Below are positions 1,154 through 13,294 of a DNA stretch of 13,749 bases, one piece after another. The stretch lies in NCBI RefSeq assembly GCF_000313135.1, contig NW_004457263.1, forward strand, positions 64,782-78,530, read 5' to 3'. The position numbers were made by a program, and so were the translations under genes. The stretch comes from Acanthamoeba castellanii str. Neff (lineage: Eukaryota; Discosea; Longamoebia; Acanthamoebidae). Positions within the stretch are counted from its first letter, which is position 1. The number at the start of each line of letters is the position of its first letter. Under the pieces are notes generated by a model. That model was not told where the DNA came from. It made no database searches and saw only the letters and a program-made list of their open reading frames with translations.

Positions 1154-2921
1154 CTACATCTTGAGAGACTTGGCCTCATAGACTCCCGGCAGCTTGTCCA
1201 TGTACTCATCCACGAACGAGATCAGCTTGTCCTTCACCTTCTCGTTCCATTTCAGCTCAGCTGCTCGACACCAACCGACCACACACCACACAAACTGCAC
1301 GTCAGTCGACTGTCGTGTCGTTGGTCGTGTCGTGTCGTGTGTCGGCGGGTGTGACTGTACCGCTGCGTCCCTTCTTGCTGCTGGCCTTCTTCACCAGCAT
1401 GCGCCTCTGCTCCTTCTCCACGATCAGGTGCGTGAGCTTCCGCGCCAGATGCTTGAAATCGTCCTTGCTCTTCACCTTGCCCTGCAGCCACGTGCACACG
1501 GTCGTTGGTGAGTGAAAAGAGATCGCGCGCAGAGCCCCGCAAAGCCGGGGAAGGAGGGTAGTGGGGGGGGGGGAACCATACCTCGTCCAAGTACTTCTTG
1601 AGGTATTTGACGACGTAGGTGCCCACCGTCTTGCGGAACTTCTTCTCGCTCGAGACCGCCTTGTCCTTGCTCCCGGCGCTGGCCGCCACGGGGATCTTGG
1701 CCTTCTCCTTCTCCTTCGTTCTCCTCGCCTCGTCCCGCTCCTTCTGCTCCTTCCTCTCGTTCCGGCCCTGCCCCTGGGGCACCTCCACGCCAGAGGTAAG
1801 GCCGGTGCTGATACTACCGCCGCCGCTGCCGCTGCCGCCGCCGTGGCCATTGGTACGCGCCGGCGGGTTGTTGCCGACGAGGCCGCCCATGGCCATGGTC
1901 ATGGCGGCCTGTTGGGGCGTCGGCATGAACGGCTGGGCGCCGCCGCCCATCGCGGCAAACTGGTGGAGGCCCGCCGGCATCTGCTGCTGCTGCTGCTGTG
2001 CGGGTAGTGCTGTTGCTGGTGGTGGTGGAGCGGCGGCGGCGTCATGTGGAGGGGAGGCCGGTTGGCCAGGTGCGTGGGGAAGGCCGGGTTGTAGGCGCCG
2101 GCGAGCGCGGGCGGCATGATGCCCTGCGGCTGCGGCTGCGGCTGGCCGCTGTTGATGAGATAGGGCGGCGGCGTGGGGAGGCCCATGACTCGTGGCGGTG
2201 CCGAGGCGATGAGTGGCGGACGGGGCTGGAAGGGCAGCTGGCCCACGGGCGCGGGCAGCGCCGACTGAGACGACCCCGACGTCGCAGACGACGGCGGGAA
2301 GGCGTCCTCCCAGCGGTACTTCTTCTGCTGCGACGGCGGCGACGACGATCGTGGCGGCGTTTTCCGCTTCTCGTTCTCCCGCCGGTCCCACCCATCACTT
2401 CGTCGGTCCCGGTCTCGGTCGCGGTCGCGGTCTCGGTCCCTATCGCCGTCGCGGTCCCGTTCTCGGTCTCTGTCGCGGTCGTAGTCCGCATCACGGTCGC
2501 GGTCTCGGTCTCTGTCGCGGTCCCGTCTGTCCCGGTCGTCTCGGTCGCGACGTCGGTCCCGGTCGTCGTCGCGGTCATAGCGATCCCTGTCGCGGTCGCG
2601 GTCGCGGTCGCGATCATCGTGCCCGTTGCCGGAGCTGCTGGCCTTCTTTTTGAAGCGCGGCATGGCACCGAGGCTCTGCGTCGCGCTCTTGCGGCTCTTG
2701 GACTCGCTCGCGGCGGACCTGCGCTTGCCGGTGGTGGCCCGCGCGACGAGCTCCTCCGACTCCAACGGTCCGCTCCACGCCCGGTCGATGCGGCCGGCCT
2801 CGCGCAAGCCGCTGAGGTAGGCGCCGGCCACCGTCGCGGGATGTTCGCGCTGCGTGGCCTCGCCCGCGAAGAAGAGGCGGAGCGAAACGGGACGCGCCAG
2901 CATGTCGTAGTCGTCACCTAT

Positions 2922-2952
<31 letters not shown>

Positions 2953-5042
2953 GCAATGTTGTCAGGTCTGTCGATAAGAAATGAAGAAGAAATACCTGAG
3001 GCATCGACGGACACGTAGGAGTAGGAGCCCCGGGCGAACGGGTCGCTGTACCACCGGGTGATGACGTGGTTGATGGGATCGGGGCAGCCCGGGTAGACCT
3101 GCCGCAGCTTGCGCATGGCCCTGGCCACGATCTCCTCGTCGCTCCGCTCCTCGTGCGTGTAGGCCGCACCGCCAGCCACCAGCGCCAGAAGGATCGGCTT
3201 CTTCATGCAGCGGTGCATGTTGTTGTAGATGAAGCACTCGCCCCTGAGCCGCAGCACGTGTGAGTGTTCGCCAACACAATCAGAAGCGCGACGTGTGAGG
3301 GACCCAGGTGTACCGTTGGGCGATCTCGTCGTCGCACACGCCAAAGTAATCCTTGGTGTCGTCCCAGAACACGCTAGGGAAGAGGAGGCCCACCTTGTTC
3401 AGGTTGCCGAACCCCATCCGGTTGATGACGTCCACCTTCCAGCCCGGCAGGGGAGGCTCGAAGCTCACCGCCCTGTCGGAGGGGGAAACGCGTTGAGTCA
3501 AACAACGACATTCCACGGCGCGCGATCGACGCACCCCTGCTTCAAAACGCCGAGCGGGAGCGTGACGAGAACGATGTCGCCCTCGAATGTGTCGCCGTTC
3601 GAGGTGGTCACCCGGACGCCGTCGTCGTCGTAGTGGAGCGACTCCACGGGGTGGCCGTAGCGGATGTCCAGCCCGTCGGCCAGCTTTTGCAGGACCGTGC
3701 CGTAGCCCCTCTGCAGAAGGCAGTGGTGGCCCTCGAAATCGTATTGATCGTCCTTGGGTCCAACAACAAAGAGAGGGAAAACGAGTGCGATGAGGGTACA
3801 CGAATTGGCAGGCGGGCGTTCGTATTAGTAGTGGTAGTGGGTACCTGATCCCAGTGACGGAGCGAGATGTCGGCCAGCTCAGCCGCACATGCGTACTCCA
3901 GGTTGGCCACGTGCCAATCAAATGTCGATCGTTCAAGCGGCGTGTACTCGGGATAGAGATTCTGCACACATCGCGTGTTGTGTGGTAGGTGGGTGGGTGG
4001 GTGGTTAGGAGGAGAAACCAAAGTTGCGGGCGAGTAGCGGCGTACCTGCTCCTGGAGCACATGATCGATTGCACGGCCCAGCGATGTACGGTCGGTAATC
4101 TTCTCGGAGGAGCTGGGGAGGGACAGCGCCGCGGCCAGCGACACCACTCGCTTCCTGGGCGGAGGCGAGGCCTTGGTGGTCGTGGCTCCTCCCTTCTCGC
4201 TGGGTTCCTCTTCCTTGACTGTGCGCAGTCCTCACAGTGAGTAGGAGTCAGCGTGACCGAAGGATAGTGCGAAGTGAGTAGAGGTTACCGCTGGCCCCGG
4301 GCTGGCCGGCGTCTTCGCCCATGAGCTCGGCGTAGAAGGTGGCCAGAGCCTCGGCCTTCTGTTCCTCGGTCTCCTGCTTCACCTCCGTTGTGGCCTCCTG
4401 CTTCACCTCTGTCGTGGTCTCCTGCTTCACCTCCGGCGCGACGGAGTCTTCGACGCTGGCGGGCTGCTCGAACGGTTCGGACTTGGCGGCCTCGTCACCC
4501 TGTCGCTGCTGCTGCTGGGCCTCGGTATCGGGCTTGGCCTCGGCCTCGGCCTCGATGTCCTCCTCCATCGAGGGCACCTGGATCGAGTCCTCCTCCCCCT
4601 TTTTCTCCTCCTCCTCTTCTTTCTTCACGCGGGGCGTCTCCGCCTTCTTGGCGCCTTGCTCCTCCTCGCGGGGGGCGGGCACCACCAGCTTTTTCTCCTC
4701 CTTGACGTACGCCGCTTTGCCGAACACTACCGCCGTGTTCTTCTCCTCGCGCATCAGGTCCCAGTACTGGACCTGCACACGCACACACACACACACGCAC
4801 ACGCACACACGGTGTGTCAGCCGAGCACGGGAGTGAGCCAATGCAATGAGCGGATGGACGTTGCTTACCTTGTTGGTGAGCCGGAGCACGTCGTTGAAGT
4901 CCTTCTCCACCTTTTCGTCGAGGTCCGCCGGCGGAGGAATGCCAGCGGCGGTGTACAGCGGGCAGTCGCTCTCGAGTATGTGCACCTCCTCGCGCACCTG
5001 CTTGATGAGGTTGAACACCGGATTACCAATCGTACCTGTAGG

Positions 5043-5085
<43 letters not shown>

Positions 5086-6149
5086 TTATTTCACAATCCT
5101 AACTTGCGACTTGCGGCGACAAAGCGAGGCAGGACCGCGTACCGGTCACGACCATGGCGCCCAGGTCGATCTCGCCGCCCAACGAGCTGTTTGTGTTGAC
5201 TCGCCCGCCGACCCGATCTCGCGCCTCCAACACTGTCACCCTAGTGTGCGAAGAAAAAGAGCGAAGAGAGAGGGAGGGGTGACGCAATGTTTTTAGGGGA
5301 GGTGTTGCGCCCATGATAGTAGATCGAGCTGAGGGAGTACTGATAGCCGAGGTGGTGAAGGTGCTTGGCCGCCGCGAGACCGGACGCGCCCGCGCCGAGT
5401 ACGATGACCTTCTCCTTGTTCCATTCCTTCCGCGGATTATCGAACACGCCGGTGTTGATGTAGCCGTAGCGCGTCAGGAAGTCGTGCGCCAGCTTCGCCG
5501 TCGGCGCGTGCTTCGCCTGCCCAGAAACAAGTAACATCATCAACGTCGTCTTCCTCCTCCTCGAGAGCGCAGAGAGGGGCTAAGACGAAGAAGACGAAGA
5601 AGAAGTAGAGATGAAGTACCCGCAGGCCCTTGATGGCTTCGGCGCGGGTGAGGTACTCGTGGGGGTTCTTGAGCCACTTGCAAAGCACCGAGTTCCTGAC
5701 CACCACGTAGGCCTCGGAATCGGCCGCGGCGGTGGCTGGCAGCTCGCGCTTCTCGCGCCACGACAGCATGCTGGGCGGAAGCCCCACCTGGGCCGCCGCA
5801 TCTGCACAAAGAAGGCCAAACGTGAGGTCAGTGGAGAGAGAGAGAGAGAGAGTTCGAGCAGACTTCCGCACTGGATGGGTGCACACCGTGTTCTTTGTTG
5901 TACTCCTCCCTCGCCACGCGCTCTTCGTCAAAGTCGTCAAGGCCCAGCCCGTCCAGCTCGCGCTGCACCTTCTTGGCCTGACGATTGCGCAGCCGCCGTT
6001 GGTAGGAAAGGCCCTTGTCCTTCTTGTCGCGGGCGTAGCCCTCCCGCGGACCGTACTCGGAAACATCTGTGATGATGATGAAGGGAAACACATGCGTTCA
6101 TTTGAACTGTCAATCAATGGGTCGGGAAAAACGTACATTCGGTGTCCAT
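1154..6149 (-). CDS. LSD1/KDM1-type flavin histone demethylase fused to a C-terminal SRI domain (15 exons)
   Basis: Inferred exons: 6149-6137, 6066-5887, 5801-5620, 5516-5341, 5240-5143, 5035-4869, 4772-4289, 4218-4046, 3961-3845, 3752-3535, 3472-3314, 3243-2996, 2917-1582, 1481-1361 and 1260-1154, about 1259 residues. Every junction keeps frame; one break lies inside exon 13 near 2002. Residues 65-153 resemble a SWIRM domain. GAGASG at 166-171, then LEARDRVGGRV, is the FAD Rossmann signature. HWDQDD, TLPLGVLKQ, RMGFGNLNK (Lys629, aligning with catalytic Lys661 of human LSD1), RGSYSYV and LFFAGE...LSGLREAGRI follow in LSD1 order. Known members oxidatively remove methyl groups from H3K4me1/2 in the nucleus. 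The Tower position (about 273-490) holds acidic low-complexity sequence. The C-terminal extension has an Arg-Asp tract, a Pro/Gln/Gly-rich stretch and an SRI domain at about 1162-1250. Demethylase assignment is strong; the target residue is inferred. Confidence 0.88.
1165..1648 (-). other. SRI (Set2 Rpb1-interacting) domain coding region
   Basis: This covers the end of exon 13 plus exons 14 and 15. The peptide starts with KKFRKTVGTYVVKYLKKYLD, continues with SKDDFKHLARKLTHLIVEKE, and ends with WNEKVKDKLISFVDEYMDKL. The middle block closely matches the DFKHLARKLT segment of the SETD2 SRI domain, and the last block matches its third helix. In Set2/SETD2 this domain binds the Ser2/Ser5-phosphorylated CTD of RNA polymerase II. 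Splice phases place it in one transcript with the demethylase, apart from the upstream frame break. Confidence 0.85.
1999..2010 (-). other. Reading-frame break next to a (CAG)6 run in exon 13
   Basis: From 2917 down to about 2010 the frame encodes the demethylase end, the Arg-Asp tract and a Pro-rich stretch. That frame runs to a stop near 1899 through uncharacteristic sequence. The frame shifted by one base is open from the CAG run (1981-1998) into the SRI domain. No GT donor lies within about 150 nt upstream. One base missing in the short C run just before the CAG repeat would reconcile both halves, and total exon length is one short of a multiple of three. A weak-donor intron starting near 2188 is the alternative. 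Confidence 0.7.
2403..2618 (-). repeat. Arg-Asp dipeptide repeat in the demethylase C-terminal extension
   Basis: About 72 residues (roughly 839-910) consist almost only of alternating Arg and Asp, with rare Tyr, Glu, Ala or Gly. At DNA level it is a degenerate six-base repeat (GACCGN on the coding strand). Similar RD/RE mixed-charge tracts occur in U1-70K and other RNA-processing or nuclear-speckle proteins. The peptide is in frame with the demethylase core. Confidence 0.92.
2922..2948. repeat. (CA)n microsatellite in demethylase intron 12
   Basis: An uninterrupted 27-nt CA run. On the coding strand it is a GT run that ends one base before the TAG acceptor at 2920-2918, where a polypyrimidine tract would be expected. 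Confidence 0.95.
4289..4772 (-). other. Acidic low-complexity insertion at the LSD1 Tower position (exon 7)
   Basis: Exon 7 (residues about 273-433) starts with VQYWDLMREEKN and then becomes Glu/Lys-rich with Gln and Thr. It includes three tandem EVKQE(T/A)T repeats encoded by a 24-bp unit at about 4371-4438. In animal LSD1 this place is occupied by a two-helix antiparallel coiled coil, the Tower, that binds CoREST. Here the Glu/Lys-rich part has no clear heptad pattern. Exon 8 continues with a basic PPPRKRVV motif before the conserved core resumes in exon 9. Confidence 0.75.
4776..4810. repeat. CA/CG-rich microsatellite in demethylase intron 6
   Basis: A 35-nt run of alternating CA with scattered CG steps, directly next to the 3' splice site of the 96-nt intron 4773-4868. 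On the coding strand it reads as a GT-rich tract. Confidence 0.9.
5045..5084. repeat. (TG)20 microsatellite in demethylase intron 5
   Basis: Forty nucleotides of uninterrupted TG on the plus strand, which is CA on the coding strand. It lies about 7 nt from the acceptor of intron 5 (5036-5142). It is the longest simple repeat in the window and probably length-variable. Confidence 0.95.
5833..5852. repeat. (GA)10 simple repeat in demethylase intron 2
   Basis: Twenty nucleotides of alternating G and A within intron 5802-5886. On the coding strand it is a CT repeat, which can act as a pyrimidine tract. Confidence 0.85.
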
Positions 6150-6409
6150 ATGCGCAGCACTGCCGGTTATCAAACAGGTCAGCCGACTGTCCACGGGAAT
6201 GGGAGGGAGGCGAAGCACTCGGCGTGCGGATGAATGGAATCTAACGGCACCAGTGTTTGTCCCTTTTCCGCAACAATTTCTTTTATTTTCGAAACACTTT
6301 TTTCTCTTCATAATCGGAATTCCTTGAATTCTGGCCGTTGACAAAATGGGGGGAAAGTGGCTGGAGGCAAAACGTGAGCAGCGACCACGGCCAACGCGAA
6401 AGGAAAAAG
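6150..6409. promoter_or_regulatory. Bidirectional promoter region between the demethylase and LRR-SAP genes
   Basis: 260 bp separate two head-to-head start codons (6149 minus, 6410 plus). The middle part (about 6250-6335) is AT-rich with T-runs, unlike the GC-rich flanks. It contains a GGAATTCC palindrome at 6316-6323 followed by GAATTC at 6326-6331. No canonical TATA box is evident. The role is inferred from gene arrangement only. Confidence 0.6.
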
Positions 6410-8698
6410 ATGAGCACCAGCGTCGTGGCGCGGTCCAAGAAGAGAAAGCGAACCGCAAATCAACAGCTCCAAACCAGACTCGATGGAGGCTACTGGAGGA
6501 GAAAAGCGGCGATGGATGGACTCACCACGTCGTCGAAGGCTGCGACGTCCAAGAGAACGCGAAAGGTCAAGGTCACCATCGTTACTTCGGAGGTAATTCA
6601 TCTGTGTTCACCCTTTTGCGATATTTTATTATTTATTTATTGGATTAATGGTCGAGACTGCATCGTGCAGGACGAAGATGAAGGTGAGGAGGCTCATGAA
6701 TTTAAAGAGCAAGACTGGGTACCGAAGGCGAAGCAAAATCCGACGGCCAGCCCTAGAAAATCAAAGACACGAGCACCATCCTTGAGTCCAATGAAGGGCC
6801 GGCAGTGTCGGCCCACCCTTGTGCTCGACTTGACCGCCGACGATCTGCCGCTTCCCATCTCACCCAATCGGTGGCCGAGCATCCATCAGTCCTGCCCTGC
6901 TGCTCCCAGCACCACCCTGTCCTCGCCTCACGCCACTGACAGCTCGACCGCTACTCTACCACCACCGCCCAAGCCGAGCGCTGGCGGTGATGATGATGGT
7001 GGTGAGCTCATGCACACGCTTGGACCCTACCTCCTCGAGAACCAACGCAACGAAACGCGACAGCGCAACCAACGCCACTTCCGCGAGGTGTCCCTCTTTG
7101 CGCTGTGCGTGGACGTCGTTGCTGGCATCGAGTGGACGACGTCGTCGCCGGTCATGCCGGGTCCGAGGGTCGCTAGGCCTGGTCACCAGTCGCCCGTGGC
7201 CAGGACCCCTCAGTCCCACTCCTCGCCCTTTGGCTCGCCGGTGCATTGGCTGCCCTCGGCGGCGTCGCCTTTGGCATCCCCGCCACACGCGCTGTCTCTG
7301 CGATCCGAGATCGTCAGCCTTCCGCTGCCGCCGCAAGCGAAGCGGGTGGTGTTCGACGACGCGACGGTGAAGCGAATCGTCGAGCGCTGTCGGAAGACGC
7401 GGGCCAGCATGCAACCCTTCGTCGGCTTCTTCGACGCCGCTGCTCTCCCCTGCCTCGACTTGAGCGAGTGCAGGCTTGGCCGGGGCACCGTGATTCCCTT
7501 CCACGGTATATGTACACACCACCGCACAACGCACAACGCACGGCACACACGACACGACACACGCACGACACACAGTCACATGCACGCACCACTGACCGGT
7601 TGAGCTTTGGCAGAGTTCAGTTCGCTGACGGAGCTCAACCTGGCGTCCACTGATCTTGGGATGAGTACACTCAAACTTGTCGGATGTACGCCACAAAGAA
7701 TTCGCTCCTCGGTTCATCGTCGCACGCATCTGGCGCCATCTCTGACGATAGACACGCACAACCGCACACGCACACGCACAACCGCACACGCACACGCACA
7801 TACGTCGCGGGGGTTGGTGGTGGTTTAGGTCTGCCGGGTCTGGTGAAACTCAACCTGAGCAACATGCATCTCAACGACGAGCATCTGGTGCACGTTGCAA
7901 GTACACATCTCGTCTCGGCGGGCCGACCCCTGCCCATCTTGCTGTCTATCTCTCCCACTCAGCACTCATTCCGTTTCTCTCCGGGTGGTGCGCGCAGAGC
8001 TCGCCCGACTGAGAGAGCTGAAGGTCGCCCGCAACGTCGACATCACGAACATTGGCGCCAACGACAGCATCGCCAGTACGAATCCCCAACAAGAGGACCG
8101 AAACTTGAACATCTTATTTATTTATTTATTGGCTCATCACGATCCCGTGCCTGCCATCAGAGCTGAGCCGATTGGAGGTGCTCGATGTCCAGGGAACATC
8201 GATCTTCATCACCGCTCTGTGCCGCCTAGTTGGTACACATCATCGGCTCTTCTCTTTATTCTTCGTTAGCCGTTGCGCTGAATGATGGTCGCGCGTGCAT
8301 GAACGTCTGGCGTCACGCACGCACACTTGTCACGTCGCAGCGCGACTGCCCGACCTCCGCTTCCTGCGGGTGGCCGAGCGTACGGAGGAGTATCTGCGCA
8401 ACCAGGCCGAGGTCTACGCCTGCCCCGATCTCATTACGTGCAAGGAGGAGGCCCAGCTCCTCTCCCTTGCGGAGCTGCGAAGGTACGCACACGCACACAC
8501 GTACCACCGCACACGCACACGCACCGGCGCACAACAAACGACGAACGTCTACGTAGGCAGCTGCAAATCCTGGAGACGACGGGCGCAGGAGGGAAGAAGG
8601 CCGAGCTGCTGGCCCGGCTCGAGAAGCTGCTCGACAAGCGAAAAGAGGAGGAACCACTCATCTGCATCGTGATGGCCCGGCAAGACACTATTGTGTAG
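6410..8698 (+). CDS. Leucine-rich repeat protein with SUMO-interacting motif and C-terminal SAP domain (8 exons)
   Basis: Inferred exons: 6410-6592, 6671-7505, 7614-7685, 7829-7900, 7998-8075, 8161-8232, 8341-8482 and 8557-8698, giving 531 residues and a TAG stop. Residues 9-14 are basic (SKKRKR, probable nuclear signal). Residues 62-300 are Pro/Ser-rich and probably disordered. LVLDLTADD at 111-119 fits a SUMO-interacting motif. From about residue 327 come LRRs of the LxxLxxLxL type (LPCLDLSEC, SSLTELNLAS, PGLVKLNLSN, ARLRELKVAR, SRLEVLDVQG, PDLRFLRVAE). Residues 478-507 (LSLAELRRQL, then GGKKAELLARL) match the SAP helix-extension-helix motif, which binds AT-rich or scaffold DNA. SAP plus SIM occurs in PIAS SUMO ligases, but no SP-RING is present. 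A chromatin or nuclear-matrix role is inferred. Intron 1 (78 nt) has no in-frame stop, so retention would keep the frame. Confidence 0.8.
6818..6844 (+). other. Candidate SUMO-interacting motif
   Basis: It encodes LVLDLTADD: four hydrophobic or aspartate-interrupted positions followed by acidic residues, as in the VIDLT-type motif of PIAS proteins. It sits in a Pro/Ser-rich, probably disordered region, where such motifs work. It is short and could be chance. Confidence 0.5.
7761..7800. repeat. Two perfect 20-bp tandem repeats in an LRR-gene intron
   Basis: The 20-mer ACCGCACACGCACACGCACA occurs at 7761-7780 and again at 7781-7800, inside intron 7686-7828. Nineteen bases of the same unit recur at 8506-8524 in intron 8483-8556 of the same gene. 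Introns 2, 3 and 7 of this gene are CA/CG-rich. Confidence 0.9.
8557..8698 (+). other. C-terminal exon with most of the SAP domain
   Basis: The SAP motif begins at the end of exon 7 (LSLAELRR) and continues here as QLQILETTGAGGKKAELLARLEKLL in two helices. The conserved GGKKAEL turn is clear. The protein then ends with a short tail after KRKEEE. Confidence 0.72.
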
Positions 8699-8951
8699 CC
8701 ATGCGTGACGACGAATGTACAAACGGCTTAGATCGGGGACTCCACATACAGCCCGGGCTTTTTTCTTTTCAACTCCTAAGCATGGTGGCTACGAGGGAGA
8801 GCACCCGGCCGACACGAATTCTTAGGGAGGAGAAGTAGCGAGAAAACAGGTCGGGGTGGGGCTGAAGAGCCCCTGCTGTTTGAAATGTTGTTGTCATTGC
8901 AAAGAGATAATCATGATGTTTGTTATCATATATCAGTAAACAGCAACTTAA
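8699..8951. other. Intergenic region between convergent genes
   Basis: 253 bp where the plus-strand LRR-SAP gene and the minus-strand coiled-coil gene meet tail to tail. It contains the palindrome AGCCCGGGCT followed by six T (8750-8764) and a hairpin at 8858-8873. No AATAAA was found for either gene, so their 3' ends are not located. No coding frame or RNA gene is supported. Confidence 0.6.
8858..8873. repeat. Short perfect hairpin in the convergent intergenic region
   Basis: GGGGCT and AGCCCC form a 6-bp GC-rich stem closed by a four-base GAAG loop. Position between two converging genes suggests a possible 3'-end structure, but this is inference. Confidence 0.55.
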
Positions 8952-11149
8952 TCAGCCCGGCCGGGCGCAGACCTGCGGACGGTAGTGGGTGTTCGAGCTG
9001 GCCGCTTCCATCTCCCTGCGCAGGGCGGCATTGGTGTTGTCGAGCTTGTCTTGCGTGCGGCGCCACTGCTCGCGCGGCTCTGCCCTGCGGTGCTCCACGA
9101 CCTTGGCTTGCTTGCTCAGCTGTAACTGAACGGTCTCCAGCTGTCGCTGCAGTTCATCGCGTCGGCGCTTGTTGGCCTGATGCTCGCTCTCCAGCCGCTC
9201 CTGCTCCCTCTGCGCCCGCCTGACCTTCTCCCTTTGCGAGCTAATCTCGAGCTGACAGGCGTTGATCTCGCGGGTCACCTTCGCCAAGTCGGCGGTCGCA
9301 GCCTGCAGGTCGGCGCTGGCCTTGTCTAGCCCAAGCCGCGTCTGTTCGACGGCGGCCTTGGCCGCGTCGTGGCCCTCCTGTGCCCGCCGGTGCGCGGCCT
9401 GGGCTTCCCGGTGCTGCTGGGCCAGGTCGGCCCGGATCGCCCTGCGCTCGTCGCGCCTGAGCTTGGCCTCGACCAGCGCCTCCTTTAGCTTCTGGTCGTA
9501 CACTGCCGCTGCCTTGCTGTCGGCCTCGAGCCGCGAATGCGCGTCGACTGTTCTCGTCTCGTTCTGTCGCGCGACGTTGCGCCTGGCCTTGGCGCTCTCC
9601 ATGGAGCCCTCAGCCCCTCGTCGGAGGGTAGTCTTGGCGCTCACGAGTTCGACCGCCTGCTGGAGACCCTTTCGGGCCACATCGGTGGCGGCCGAGGCGG
9701 CCGAGGCCGCGTCAGCGCACTCCGCCTCCTTGGCCTTGGCCTGGCCGACGCGCTCCTGCGCCGCGCTGACGTCAGCTTCGGCGGCCTTCAGCTCGGCCTC
9801 GGCCTGGGCCTTGAGCTGGGCCGTCACGGCACTGAAGACAGCGATCGCGGCCGCGACTGCCACACCAACGGGGCCGCCGGCCATCGCGACTGGAGCCAGC
9901 GTGGCGGCCGTCTGGGATCCATCCGCAGGCGCAGCGCTCGGGGCCGCCTCCTTGCGGTGCTTGTCCTCGGCCTTCCACGCGGCCTGCTTGACATAGGTGT
10001 CGCCGAGGCCCTGTACGGCGGGCACAAGGCTGCACACGAGGCCGAGCTCGGCCGCCTTGGACTTTGCGGCTTCGAGCCGCTGCTGAGCGGATGCCAGCGC
10101 GGCGAGGGCCTGGGCCGCCTCCTGCTCGGCTGCCCTCTGGCGCTCCTCGGCGGCGCGCTGGTCGGCCTCGACCTTGGCCAGCTCGAGCTTCGCCTTGGCC
10201 TCTTCTGCCTACGAATCCCCGTTAGCCATCGTCACCGTCGCACCTCAAGTAACGAAGGAGAAGGCGCGTGTGCGCGTACTCGGGCGGCTTCTTCGGCTGC
10301 CTCGGCGGCTTTCAGATCCTCCTTGGCAGCGATCAGCTCTTCTTCCCTTCGCGCTGCCTCGTCCTGCGCGCGCTTCATCACGTCGGCCGCTTCGGCCCGC
10401 TTGGCCTCCACTTCCTCGATCTGCGCACATCAGCCGCCACTTCCTAATCGTGAACGGGAGGAAGCACGGTACCACTTTCTGGGACTCGTAGCACTTGATC
10501 TCCTGCAGCCGCACCCTCTCCTCGAGCGCCGCCAGCTGGAGCTCGGCCTGCTGCAGCTCGCGCTCGACCGCAGCGAGCTCCGCGGCCAGTTTTCTCTCCT
10601 GCTCCGCCGCGGCCTCGAGCTCGCGCCGTGCCTGGTCCAGGGCAGCACACGCCGCCTGGTACTGTGCCTCGGCCTCCTTCTTCTGGGCCTGCAGCTCGCC
10701 CTCGGCCTCCTCGAGCTGCTTCTTCTTCTCCTGCAGCTCTTCGAGCTTCTTCTGCTCCTCCTCAGCCTTGTCTTCGGCCGCGATGGTCTCCTCCTCCAGC
10801 TCGGCCAGCCGCCTACATGCAGCACCGCCCCCCCCCCAAGCTGACGTCAGCTGAGGCTTCAGTGAAGAAATGTAAAGATTCGAATAAAGATGAGAGGGGA
10901 GAGGACCGCTCCTGGGCTCTGATCTCCTTCTGGAGAAGGTCGATGAGCTGGACGAGGTCGCTTTGGGCCTTCTCGAGTAGTTCCAGGTCGCGCCGCGGTG
11001 GCCAACTGATCCTTCTGCCACTGGGCTTGGGCCGACTGCCGCAGCACCTGCTGGAGGGCGGTCACCTCCACTCGCAGCCGTACCTGCTTCTGGGTGAGGC
11101 GTGCCAGGCCAGAAGCGGTGCTTGCCTCTTCACTAGTGGGTCTGTCCAT
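8952..11149 (-). CDS. Long coiled-coil protein with a central hydrophobic segment (4 exons)
   Basis: Inferred exons: 11149-10907, 10812-10473, 10420-10280 and 10208-8952, about 659 residues, ending in TGA. Residues about 10-297 are Glu/Ala/Lys/Gln-rich with heptad patterning (for example ELEEETIAAEDKAEEEQKKL). A break at 299-345 leads into a hydrophobic Ala/Gly/Val stretch (346-369, AMAGGPVGVAVAAAIAVF). A second coiled coil fills about 370-645, and the tail is Pro/Arg-containing. No enzymatic motif is visible. It resembles filament, tether or scaffold proteins only by composition, so I do not assign a function. Exon 1 needs one base removed near 10993 to keep a coiled-coil frame, and the first intron has a weak GTCCTC donor. 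The region upstream carries the TTCGGCCGAACG palindrome also found before the next coiled-coil gene. Confidence 0.72.
9825..9896 (-). other. Hydrophobic Ala/Gly/Val segment within the coiled-coil protein
   Basis: About 24 residues without charge, rich in Ala, Gly, Val and Ile, between two long coiled coils. It is long enough for one membrane span or a membrane-inserting helix, but Ala-rich helices can also be soluble. Confidence 0.55.
10988..10998 (-). other. Reading-frame break in exon 1 of the first coiled-coil gene
   Basis: The ATG frame gives a helical sequence up to QWQKDQLATA, then turns into Pro/Arg-rich sequence. The frame one base further gives RDLELLEKAQSDLVQLIDLL and runs to a splice site whose phase fits exon 2. 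No plausible intron bridges the two. One extra G in the GCGGCGCG run would explain it. Exon length becomes phase-consistent only after removing one base. Confidence 0.65.
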
Positions 11150-11211
11150 GTGCGGTTGTAGTTTCGTGTGGTTATGAATAAAACTGAAAAAACCAACAAA
11201 ACCAAAACCAC

Positions 11212-11223
11212 TTCGGCCGAACG
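11212..11223. promoter_or_regulatory. TTCGGCCGAACG palindromic element, copy 1
   Basis: TTCGGCCGAA is a perfect 10-bp palindrome, followed by CG. It lies 63 bp upstream of the minus-strand start at 11149. Two more exact copies of the 12-mer lie upstream of the neighbouring coiled-coil gene. A candidate transcription-factor site, inferred from repetition and placement. Confidence 0.6.
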
Positions 11224-11283
11224 AGGAGAATCGAAAAAATGCCAGAAATGCGATGACATTTGATGTGATAATTTTTGTAATTT

Positions 11284-11289
11284 TTTATT
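11284..11289 (-). terminator. Candidate polyadenylation signal of the second coiled-coil gene
   Basis: AATAAA on the minus strand about 70 nt after the TAG stop at 11359-11361, in AT-rich sequence. Strand and distance are right for a poly(A) signal. Confidence 0.55.
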
Positions 11290-11358
11290 GAGCGGCTCCA
11301 TTTTTCTGCGGGTGACAGGGGCACTCGTTGTTTGTTTGAGAACGCAACACCGCATTCT

Positions 11359-13294
11359 CTAACCACTCCTCTGGGCGCCCACAGGAACGATGGCGGGCCT
11401 TGTGCGTTGGTAGTACGCTTCGGCGCCGCGCTTGGCGTCCTGCATGGTCTTGAGCAGCTGGTCGAGCTGCTCCTTCTTCCGCAGCGCCGTGGCGCGCGCA
11501 GCGGTGGCCACGTTGAGCAGGTCCTTCTGTTGCTGCAGCTGGCGCTCGGCCGAGCGCTGATCCTCCTGCAGGCGTGCGAGCTGGCTCACCACGCCGTCCT
11601 TCTGGCGCCTAATGAGGGCCGTCTTGGCCTTCTTCTCGCGGATCTCGCGCTCCTTGTCCTTCACCTCGGCCGCGAGCGCATCGCAGTTGGCCGTGGCGTC
11701 TTCGAGCTGAACGGTGATGGCCTGCAGCTTGCGGCCCAGCTGGTCCCGCTGGTTGCTATTGGCGTTGGCCTCCTCGGTCATGGCCCGGATGCGCAGCTGG
11801 ACTTCGGCGTGGTCCTCTTCGAGCGACGCCTGCGCCGTGATGGTGCGCTCGCGCTCGTGCTTGGTGGCGCTCAGCTTCTGCTTGAGCTCGACGAGCTGCT
11901 GGCTGACCGACCTGTGCTTGCCCTGCGCCGTGTTGAGCTTCTGCTTGGCGCGGCCGGTCTTGCTCTGGAGCTCGTTCATGCGGTTGAGCTCGCGCCTCGC
12001 GATGTTGCGGGCCTCGCGCGCCTTCTCCGTCATGCTGTCGGCTCGCTGGCGGTGTTCGTTGCGCTGCGAGGTTAGCTGGTTGTGACGCTGTCGGTTCTTG
12101 TTGATGGCATCGCGGATCTGCTGTCTCTCGCCCTCGCGGGACACCGTCACCGTGCGCTTGGGGCAGCGGCCCTCGGTGCGAGTGTAGTCCTGGGTGCTGT
12201 GGAGCTTTTGCTGCAGCTGGGCTTCCTCCGCGTCGAGCTGCGCCATCTCCTGCTCGCACCGCTGCGCGGCTGCCCTTTGCTATACGGAATGTCGTGAGTA
12301 CCACTCATGCAATTGCATGTAGTCAACGGAGCCAAATTGCTATCGTGAGGTTTCGAACCTGGGCGGCCTCTTGATCTAGGCGAGCAGCTTCGGCCTCCTG
12401 GTGTGTCTTCTCCTCGCTGGCCTCGCGGTAGCTGCTCTCCAGCTCGTTGATGAGGTCTTCGGCGTTCTCGATGGCCTGCTCGAGCTCCTTCTGCTCGGCC
12501 GAGGCCTCGCGCGTCTCCTCGCTCACCGAACGGAGCCTGTCCTCGAGACGACGCAGCGCATCGGCAAGCCGCTTGCTCTCCGCCTGTGCGCAGCCACGCG
12601 CCATGTGAGCCACGGGCCGCCATCATGGGCGAACCACCACCACCCGTTGTTTGCGCACCTTGATCTTCTCTGCAGTGAAGTTCTCTTGACGGAGGCGGTC
12701 CTGAAGGTCGGCGATGGTGGCTGCGAGGGTGTCCTCCTCGCGCTTGATGTCGTCCATCTCCTGCTTGAGCCGCTCGGCCGTGCGCTTGAGCTCGCTCAGC
12801 TTGCCGGCGACGAGCGCGTGCTCCTCCTGCTTGCTGCGCTGGTCCTCCAATGCCGCCTCGATCTCGCGATCGACGGCCTCCATCTGGGCCTGCTGCTGGG
12901 CGAGCTGCTCCTCGAGGGCCCGCGCCTTGTCCTGTGCCTCGTTGAGGGTGGCCTGTATCTGATTGATCTTGTCCGAGTGTTCTCTGACCTGAGCGCTGGC
13001 CAGGCGTGCATCGGCCCTCGCCTGGTCGCTCTCTCGCTTGGTGTCCTCGATGCGTTCGTCCACGTCCTTTAGGCCCCGCTCCACTTCCTGGGCGCTTACC
13101 TGTAGGAAGTAGCGCGAAAGGCTTCATTCATTAATTCGTTCGATTTCACGCCAAAACAAATCGAGAATCGTTGTGCGTACGTCGTAGTGAGCCAGGCGCT
13201 CCTGCATGTCCAGCTCACCCTGCAGCGGCCTCGAATCGAAGTTGAATGCTTCGGGGTTACGCGTCCTGCGCTGATCTTTCGCTGCATTATCCAT
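11359..13294 (-). CDS. Coiled-coil protein, 566 residues (4 exons)
   Basis: Inferred exons: 13294-13181, 13099-12659, 12583-12359 and 12279-11359. All three introns are phase 0 and the frame stays intact to a TAG stop. The first 38 residues (MDNAAKDQRRTRNPEAFNFD onward) are a non-coiled head. From about residue 39 nearly the whole protein is charged and Ala/Gln/Glu-rich with heptad-like leucines (RLKQEMDDIKREEDTLAATI). A short break around residues 288-305 (RCPKRTVTVSREG) separates two coiled regions, and the end is Pro/Val-rich (RPAIVPVGAQRSG). No catalytic or membrane motif is visible. It is followed in tandem by another coiled-coil gene on the same strand, and both have the same palindromic element upstream. 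A structural or scaffolding role is plausible, but the family is not recognised. Confidence 0.8.

Follow-up and report, generated by a model that had tools for sequence, protein, structure and literature searches.

A gene on the minus strand of a 13,749-nucleotide stretch of the Acanthamoeba castellanii str. Neff genome (contig NW_004457263.1, positions 64,782 to 78,530; hereafter the window, within which all positions below are counted unless a contig is named) encodes a SWIRM domain, an LSD1-type flavin amine oxidase domain and, beyond a break in the reading frame, an SRI domain. We consider it quite probable that these parts make up one protein, predicted to be a histone H3 lysine 4 (H3K4) demethylase that binds phosphorylated RNA polymerase II (Pol II) and acts cotranscriptionally. 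LSD1 with an SRI domain is a kind of protein already known, namely plant LDL3. Its occurrence in Amoebozoa, judged by architecture, is added here, and we do not claim that the amoebozoan LSD1-SRI is unpublished.

Gene structure and the demethylase part

The genes of the window are GC-rich and intron-dense. The LSD1-SRI gene was read as a chain of 15 exons (Table 1), open across exons 1-12 and changing frame within exon 13. The first piece, made up of exons 1-13 in frame A, is 1077 amino acids (aa) long. A Pfam search of this piece returned SWIRM and Amino_oxidase at 45.3 and 295.5 bits, both above the Pfam cut-offs, which confirmed the SWIRM plus amine oxidase protein of an earlier, sequence-based reading of the gene (the original prediction). 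Both sequence features named in that prediction, its Arg-Asp tract and its DDFKHLARKLTHLIVEKE block, lie within the gene. Alignment with the LSD1 proteins of Lynx and Blattella showed that the flavin-binding glycine motif GAGASG and the lysine of GFGNLNK are both kept; we take the counterpart of this lysine in human LSD1 to be K661. By its SWIRM and oxidase domains, its flavin glycine motif and its LNK lysine, the gene product belongs to the LSD1/KDM1 family, and oxidation of methyl-lysine is likely because the motif and the lysine are kept.

Animal LSD1 (KDM1A) shares SWIRM (by precomputed Pfam marks), the oxidase, the flavin motif and the LNK lysine with the window gene. It differs in possessing a tower coiled coil and in lacking an SRI domain, which no protein so named carries among the matches listed. 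At the tower position the window gene has a 283-aa insert that is acidic and of low complexity, and no tower-like sequence was found in this insert by alignment, by composition or by eye. Judged by this insert, the gene would not count as a CoREST-binding LSD1 proper, and since no tower is recognisable, an animal-style CoREST partner is probably not to be expected.

The SRI domain

The two frame pieces were searched separately against Pfam, with the break left unmended. Against a cut-off of 23.5 bits for SRI, the 208-aa piece starting from the ATG at 1980 scored 61.8 bits (7.7e-17) and its last 94 aa scored 66.0 bits (3.9e-18). The best-matching solved structures for the SRI piece were those of SETD2 (human SETD2 SRI, 2a7o, 6.3e-10; 9egz, 2.3e-8), followed by RECQL5 (0.0085). 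The original prediction had named a profile search as a check on its SRI assignment, and the assignment passed it: the C-terminal piece is a genuine SRI domain, ending 7 residues before the C-terminus. No SET match was found in the pieces of the gene at E values up to 0.1, and the gene is thus not a Set2/SETD2 methyltransferase. Set2/SETD2 is a methyltransferase without an oxidase, unlike the window gene, and the two share the SRI domain, in which 33 of 83 aligned positions are identical between the window and human SETD2.

The Pol II face of the SETD2 SRI domain was mapped by nuclear magnetic resonance and mutagenesis to V2483, F2505, K2506, R2510 and H2514 (excerpts of PMC8294582). Each of these five (V, F, K, R and H) recurs unchanged in the window, in the proteins of Balamuthia and Planoprotostelium and in a third relative, P0002 (see below), and four of them fall in one short block (Table 1). 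The RECQL5 SRI domain requires phosphorylation of the Pol II C-terminal domain (CTD) (excerpts of PMC12440807). With five of five interface residues kept, deriving CTD binding from the family, as was done originally, is reasonable, and the window SRI is predicted to bind the Ser2/Ser5-phosphorylated CTD.

Relatives with the same architecture

Searching 5.8 billion proteins with frame A gave three top matches, each a single protein that combines SWIRM, oxidase and SRI. These are P0001, a lysine-specific histone demethylase of Balamuthia mandrillaris (Discosea, 1274 aa); P0002, a 1260-aa JGI protein from a contig of 3984 nucleotides; and P0003, a lysine-specific histone demethylase of Planoprotostelium fungivorum (Evosea, 910 aa). 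The coding sequence of P0002 covers most of its contig without introns, which would be expected of a transcript. In all three proteins the SRI closes the domain order, with 0-14 residues following it. The order SWIRM-oxidase-SRI is uninterrupted in these proteins and is present at the window locus across the frame break. The original prediction had named a search for this architecture in other amoebozoan genomes as a check, and the architecture is present in Balamuthia and Planoprotostelium, with the JGI protein in addition. The LSD1-SRI fusion itself holds as a biological entity, being one protein in P0001-P0003; as a shared open frame in the present assembly it does not hold. The relatives also differ from the window gene: the Arg-Asp repeat of the window linker was not seen by eye in any of the three, and P0003 has no long acidic insert (86 aa against 283 aa in the window).

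The spread of the SRI end was examined in 188 distinct proteins obtained from two protein searches (best 120 of 137 and best 120 of 363 matches). An SRI profile built from eight domains, five of which come from proteins among those searched, matched 36 of the 188 at E values up to 0.01 and none of 940 copies with shuffled C-termini. The 36 comprised P0001-P0003, P0103 with a weak, split match and 32 LDL3-like proteins, the organism-named ones being green plants or algae; the weakest nine (P0106 down) had E values of 1.4e-6 to 8.7e-4. When the two plant rows were left out of the profile, 13 of the 188 were matched, and a profile without any LSD1 matched 6, indicating that many plant SRI ends are detectable only with plant examples in the profile. 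The LSD1-free profile, made from SETD2 and the other SRI of the Acanthamoeba genome, still recovered P0001 (6.3e-16), P0002 (6e-16) and P0003 (5.4e-9), again with 0 of 940 shuffled C-termini at E values up to 0.01. Precomputed Pfam marks assigned SRI to 10 of the 188, and the SRI of the fern protein P0074 lay barely above the cut-off (23.6 against 23.5 bits). No protein named as an animal LSD1 matched the SRI profile among the matches listed. When the SRI end of P0001 was used as the only query, 220 candidates yielded a single match, which was P0001; the 111-residue query was probably too short for an E value scaled to 5.8 billion sequences.

LDL3 and other known systems

The original prediction knew of no described LSD1 with an SRI domain, which is contradicted by Arabidopsis LDL3. 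According to excerpts of PMC10690457, LDL3 is a member of the LSD1 family that carries an SRI domain, a version from which this domain is missing fails to bind phosphorylated Pol II in the way that full-length LDL3 does, and LDL3 lowers H3K4me2 over active genes. The same excerpts report SRI-bearing LDL3 orthologues in rice, poplar, Selaginella and Physcomitrella, describe FLD, LDL2 and the mammalian LSD1 family proteins as lacking SRI, and cite human LSD2 as a homologue of LDL3 for which binding to the elongation machinery has been reported. Human LSD2 was not among the named hits. The originally drawn comparison with a role that other eukaryotes give to a separate methyltransferase is not apt: the demethylase takes over no such role, and the parallel is one of recruitment only.

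LDL3-like proteins of plants and algae (P0080, P0074 and the profile matches) share SWIRM, the amine oxidase and a C-terminal SRI with the window gene. Plant SRI domains are far diverged from that of the window, with 19 of 79 aligned positions identical between the window and Panicum LDL3, and they keep fewer of the SETD2 interface residues (two of five in Panicum LDL3 and one of five in Chlorella sorokiniana, against five of five in the window). The window SRI is nearer to that of human SETD2 than to that of Panicum LDL3, a difference that could reflect slow evolution of the window SRI or a second acquisition of the domain.

In the literature open in PMC, nothing was found that combines SRI domain, demethylase and Dictyostelium. 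Papers joining Acanthamoeba, LSD1 and histone demethylase mention Acanthamoeba once and LSD1 once or twice each. The phrase 'Set2 Rpb1 interacting' was absent among the matches listed for LSD1 and domain architecture, and the terms LDL3 and SRI were absent from PMC3424641.

Phylogeny

A tree of 43 rows was built over 535 columns from the window gene and a hand-picked set of 42 of the 188 proteins; it contains no row named plant LDL1, LDL2, FLD or animal LSD2. The window paired with P0002 (support 99/95) and next with Balamuthia (100/100). The green LDL3 rows, 24 in number, formed one side of a 100/100 branch with the window on the other, so the window gene lies outside the green LDL3 clade. 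The SRI profile matched 22 of these 24 rows, the exceptions being P0107 and P0116; P0068 and P0080 had themselves been members of the profile. In this hand-picked sample, LSD1-SRI spans two amoebozoan phyla and 22 of the 24 rows of the green LDL3 branch.

In the best tree Planoprotostelium stood apart from Balamuthia, P0002 and the window, but a clade of these four was not rejected, with a p value of 0.456 in the approximately unbiased test (p-AU). A tree constrained to one clade of the green rows plus the four amoebozoan-type rows was 1.27 log units lower and was not rejected either (p-AU 0.44). The tree gave no firm order for the deep branching among Planoprotostelium, the other three amoebozoan-type rows, the animals and the green rows. 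These results are compatible with a single old LSD1-SRI fusion that animals lost as well as with two independent gains. Two further LSD1-like proteins, P0103 (1434 aa) and P0010 (939 aa), paired with each other (99/97) off the fork of Planoprotostelium; the SRI-profile match is weak and split in P0103 and absent in P0010.

The frame break and alternative readings

Frame A, which carries the LSD1 part, the Arg-Asp tract and the Pro/Gln-rich linker, stops in exon 13 at 1901..1899. The SRI domain lies in a second frame of this exon (frame B), which is open from 2394, contains the ATG at 1980 and continues through exons 14 and 15. The claim of a single splice-phase-consistent gene thus failed for this assembly. 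Codon usage trained on exons 1-12 (738 codons; G+C content at third codon positions, GC3, 0.86) preferred frame A to ~2000 and frame B beyond, with no gap in the coding signal between the frames. The best change point was 2000-1998, and every position within 3 bits of it fell in 2003-1995, at a CAG run. From ~2017 onward the GC3 of the SRI frame was 0.82-0.97. Because the coding signals switch at ~2000 without a gap, they leave no space in which one gene could end and the promoter of another could lie. A CAG run is presumably a typical site for consensus errors, and we infer that an assembly error or a (minor) allele, rather than a gene end, is the probable explanation of the break; the short repeat and the intact domain downstream make this more likely than two genes or decay.

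Several points weigh against a single, Pol II-bound protein. The LSD1 and SRI parts share no reading frame in this assembly, and no GT-AG intron resembling the gene's others that would repair the frame was found in exon 13. All GT-AG pairs 35-399 nucleotides apart were scored there (GT-AG type only) with a splice matrix trained on the gene's own 14 introns and hence biased toward them; 85 pairs open into exon 14, the best at 5.5 bits, against donor plus acceptor sums of 11.8-19.9 bits for the 14 introns on the same matrix. All 85 candidates scored low, and a GT-AG intron of this length range joining both frames is judged unlikely. No protein close enough for the same genus, which could have settled the nature of the break, was found among the matches listed (top oxidase identity to the window 63% among the 42 proteins compared). 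The kept arginine of the SRI face is weaker evidence than the phenylalanine, lysine and histidine, because SETD2 R2510H still pulls down whole Pol II in one study (excerpts of PMC8294582). Finally, functional transfer from LDL3 rests on architecture and not on orthology, since the green rows are separated with 100/100 support.

If the break were real in the strain, the product would be a 1077-aa LSD1 that lacks the SRI domain, and the sequence coding for the latter would be a decaying remnant. The stop at 1901 and the break do exist in the assembly, and the lack of a repairing GT-AG intron agrees with this reading; it is nonetheless unlikely. The coding signal downstream is strong, the splice sites of exons 14-15 are in phase and the SRI domain is full, with all five interface residues, some of which decay would have cost; the position of the break at a CAG run also argues against decay.

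Another reading, in which the SRI-like end has some acidic partner in place of Pol II and the enzyme is not a cotranscriptional demethylase, draws on SETD2, whose SRI also binds tubulin through R2510 and K2506, and the counterparts of both residues are kept here. The window gene also retains the counterparts of F2505 and H2514, for which an influence on Pol II binding has been reported (excerpts of PMC8294582), and the SRI of Arabidopsis LDL3 binds phosphorylated Pol II (excerpts of PMC10690457), so that this reading appears very improbable.

Two adjacent genes, one for an SRI-less LSD1 that stops at 1901 and one for a small SRI protein with its start codon at 1980, would account for the separate open frames and for the ATG that opens the SRI frame, but the coding signals meet at 1995-2003 without a spacer, so that the genes would overlap, and P0001, P0002 and P0003 carry all parts in one protein; we reject this reading as the least probable of all, one gene being much likelier than two.

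Table 1. Features of the LSD1-SRI gene in the window
Feature	Position	Strand	Basis
LSD1-SRI gene, 15 exons	1154..6149	minus	exon chain, 14 GT-AG introns of 62-107 nucleotides
Exons 1-5	6149-6137, 6066-5887, 5801-5620, 5516-5341, 5240-5143	minus	
Exons 6-10	5035-4869, 4772-4289, 4218-4046, 3961-3845, 3752-3535	minus	
Exons 11-15	3472-3314, 3243-2996, 2917-1582, 1481-1361, 1260-1154	minus	
SWIRM domain (exons 3-4)	5454..5760	minus	PF04433, 1e-11, 45.3 bits (cut-off 28.6), residues 79-146
Flavin amine oxidase domain (exons 4-13)	2787..5411	minus	PF01593 Amino_oxidase, 1.2e-87, 295.5 bits (cut-off 19.8)
283-aa insert at the position of the animal tower coiled coil (exons 6-9)	3920..5018	minus	alignment with Lynx and Blattella LSD1
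Lysine codon of GFGNLNK, aligning with the LNK lysine of animal LSD1	3394..3396	minus	alignment
Arg-Asp repeat linker, then Pro/Gln/Ser-rich stretch	2403..2618	minus	direct reading
Frame break at CAG run in exon 13	1995..2003	minus	codon-usage change point
SRI domain (end of exon 13, exons 14 and 15)	1178..1635	minus	PF08236, 3.9e-18, 66.0 bits
DDFKHLARKLTH block with F, K, R and H at the positions of the SETD2 CTD-binding residues F2505, K2506, R2510, H2514	1428..1463	minus	alignment; residue roles from excerpts of PMC8294582

Genome setting

The 38.4-Mb assembly (250 contigs) was scanned for the domains concerned; SRI was scanned exon by exon, which gives a lower bound. SRI was present at at least two loci, the LSD1-SRI gene and an Arg/Ser-rich gene on contig C245. 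The match in the latter (C245:7225-7484) reached 22.2 bits, below the cut-off of 23.5, and no other Pfam match was found in the pieces of this gene that were read, its 5' part lying outside them. An AWS-SET gene at C59:72328-73105 matched SETD2 best (2.4e-17) and NSD-type proteins next (3.4e-14), and no SRI was found in the 9.9 kb around it; among the 22 SET places of the genome, the SRI-profile scan covered this one and 3.3 kb around one other. Heptad repeats gave 15 matches over several contigs, and contig C234 carries a long YSPxSPx tail (PF05001, 1.2e-24) after stretches that read as Rpb1 by eye. The one other SWIRM locus of the genome, at C28:154415-154851, is followed by a SANT-like stretch and by eye reads as a SWI3-type remodeller subunit.

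Three further genes lie in the window. Just downstream of the LSD1-SRI gene is a small Cys-rich multi-exon gene (66-1000, minus), two pieces of which gave no Pfam match. A gene divergent from LSD1-SRI (6400-8700, plus) has leucine-rich stretches by eye, and two of its pieces were likewise without a Pfam match. At 8950-13100 (minus) lies a long, coiled-coil-like protein by eye, Ala/Glu/Arg-rich and encoded in several exons, with no Pfam match in the two pieces tried.

Predicted role and evolution

The most likely role of the LSD1-SRI protein, by analogy, would be that of an H3K4 demethylase working behind elongating Pol II. The SRI domain would hold the enzyme on the Ser2/Ser5-phosphorylated CTD, and the long low-complexity linker may act as a flexible tether between polymerase and nucleosome, reaching the nucleosomes behind Pol II. 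The enzyme would then strip H3K4me1/2 during transcription; FAD (flavin adenine dinucleotide)-dependent demethylases are limited to mono- and dimethyl-lysine. The expected outcome, by analogy with Arabidopsis LDL3, would be low H3K4me2 on active genes.

A more tentative suggestion, which we hold to be possible but would not favor, is that a single LSD1-SRI fusion already existed before Amoebozoa and the green lineage separated, as an old circuit for cotranscriptional erasure of H3K4 methylation that was lost in animals; in Acanthamoeba the SRI would sit on the demethylase, and the SETD2-like methyltransferase would go without. If this were true, a Pol II-tethered LSD1 would be ancestral to most eukaryotes. 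It is now testable whether LSD1-SRI arose early in eukaryotes and was lost in animals or originated repeatedly, because it occurs in two amoebozoan phyla, because the SRI here is much nearer to that of SETD2 than the plant SRI is, and because green algal LDL3-like proteins carry a C-terminal SRI as well.

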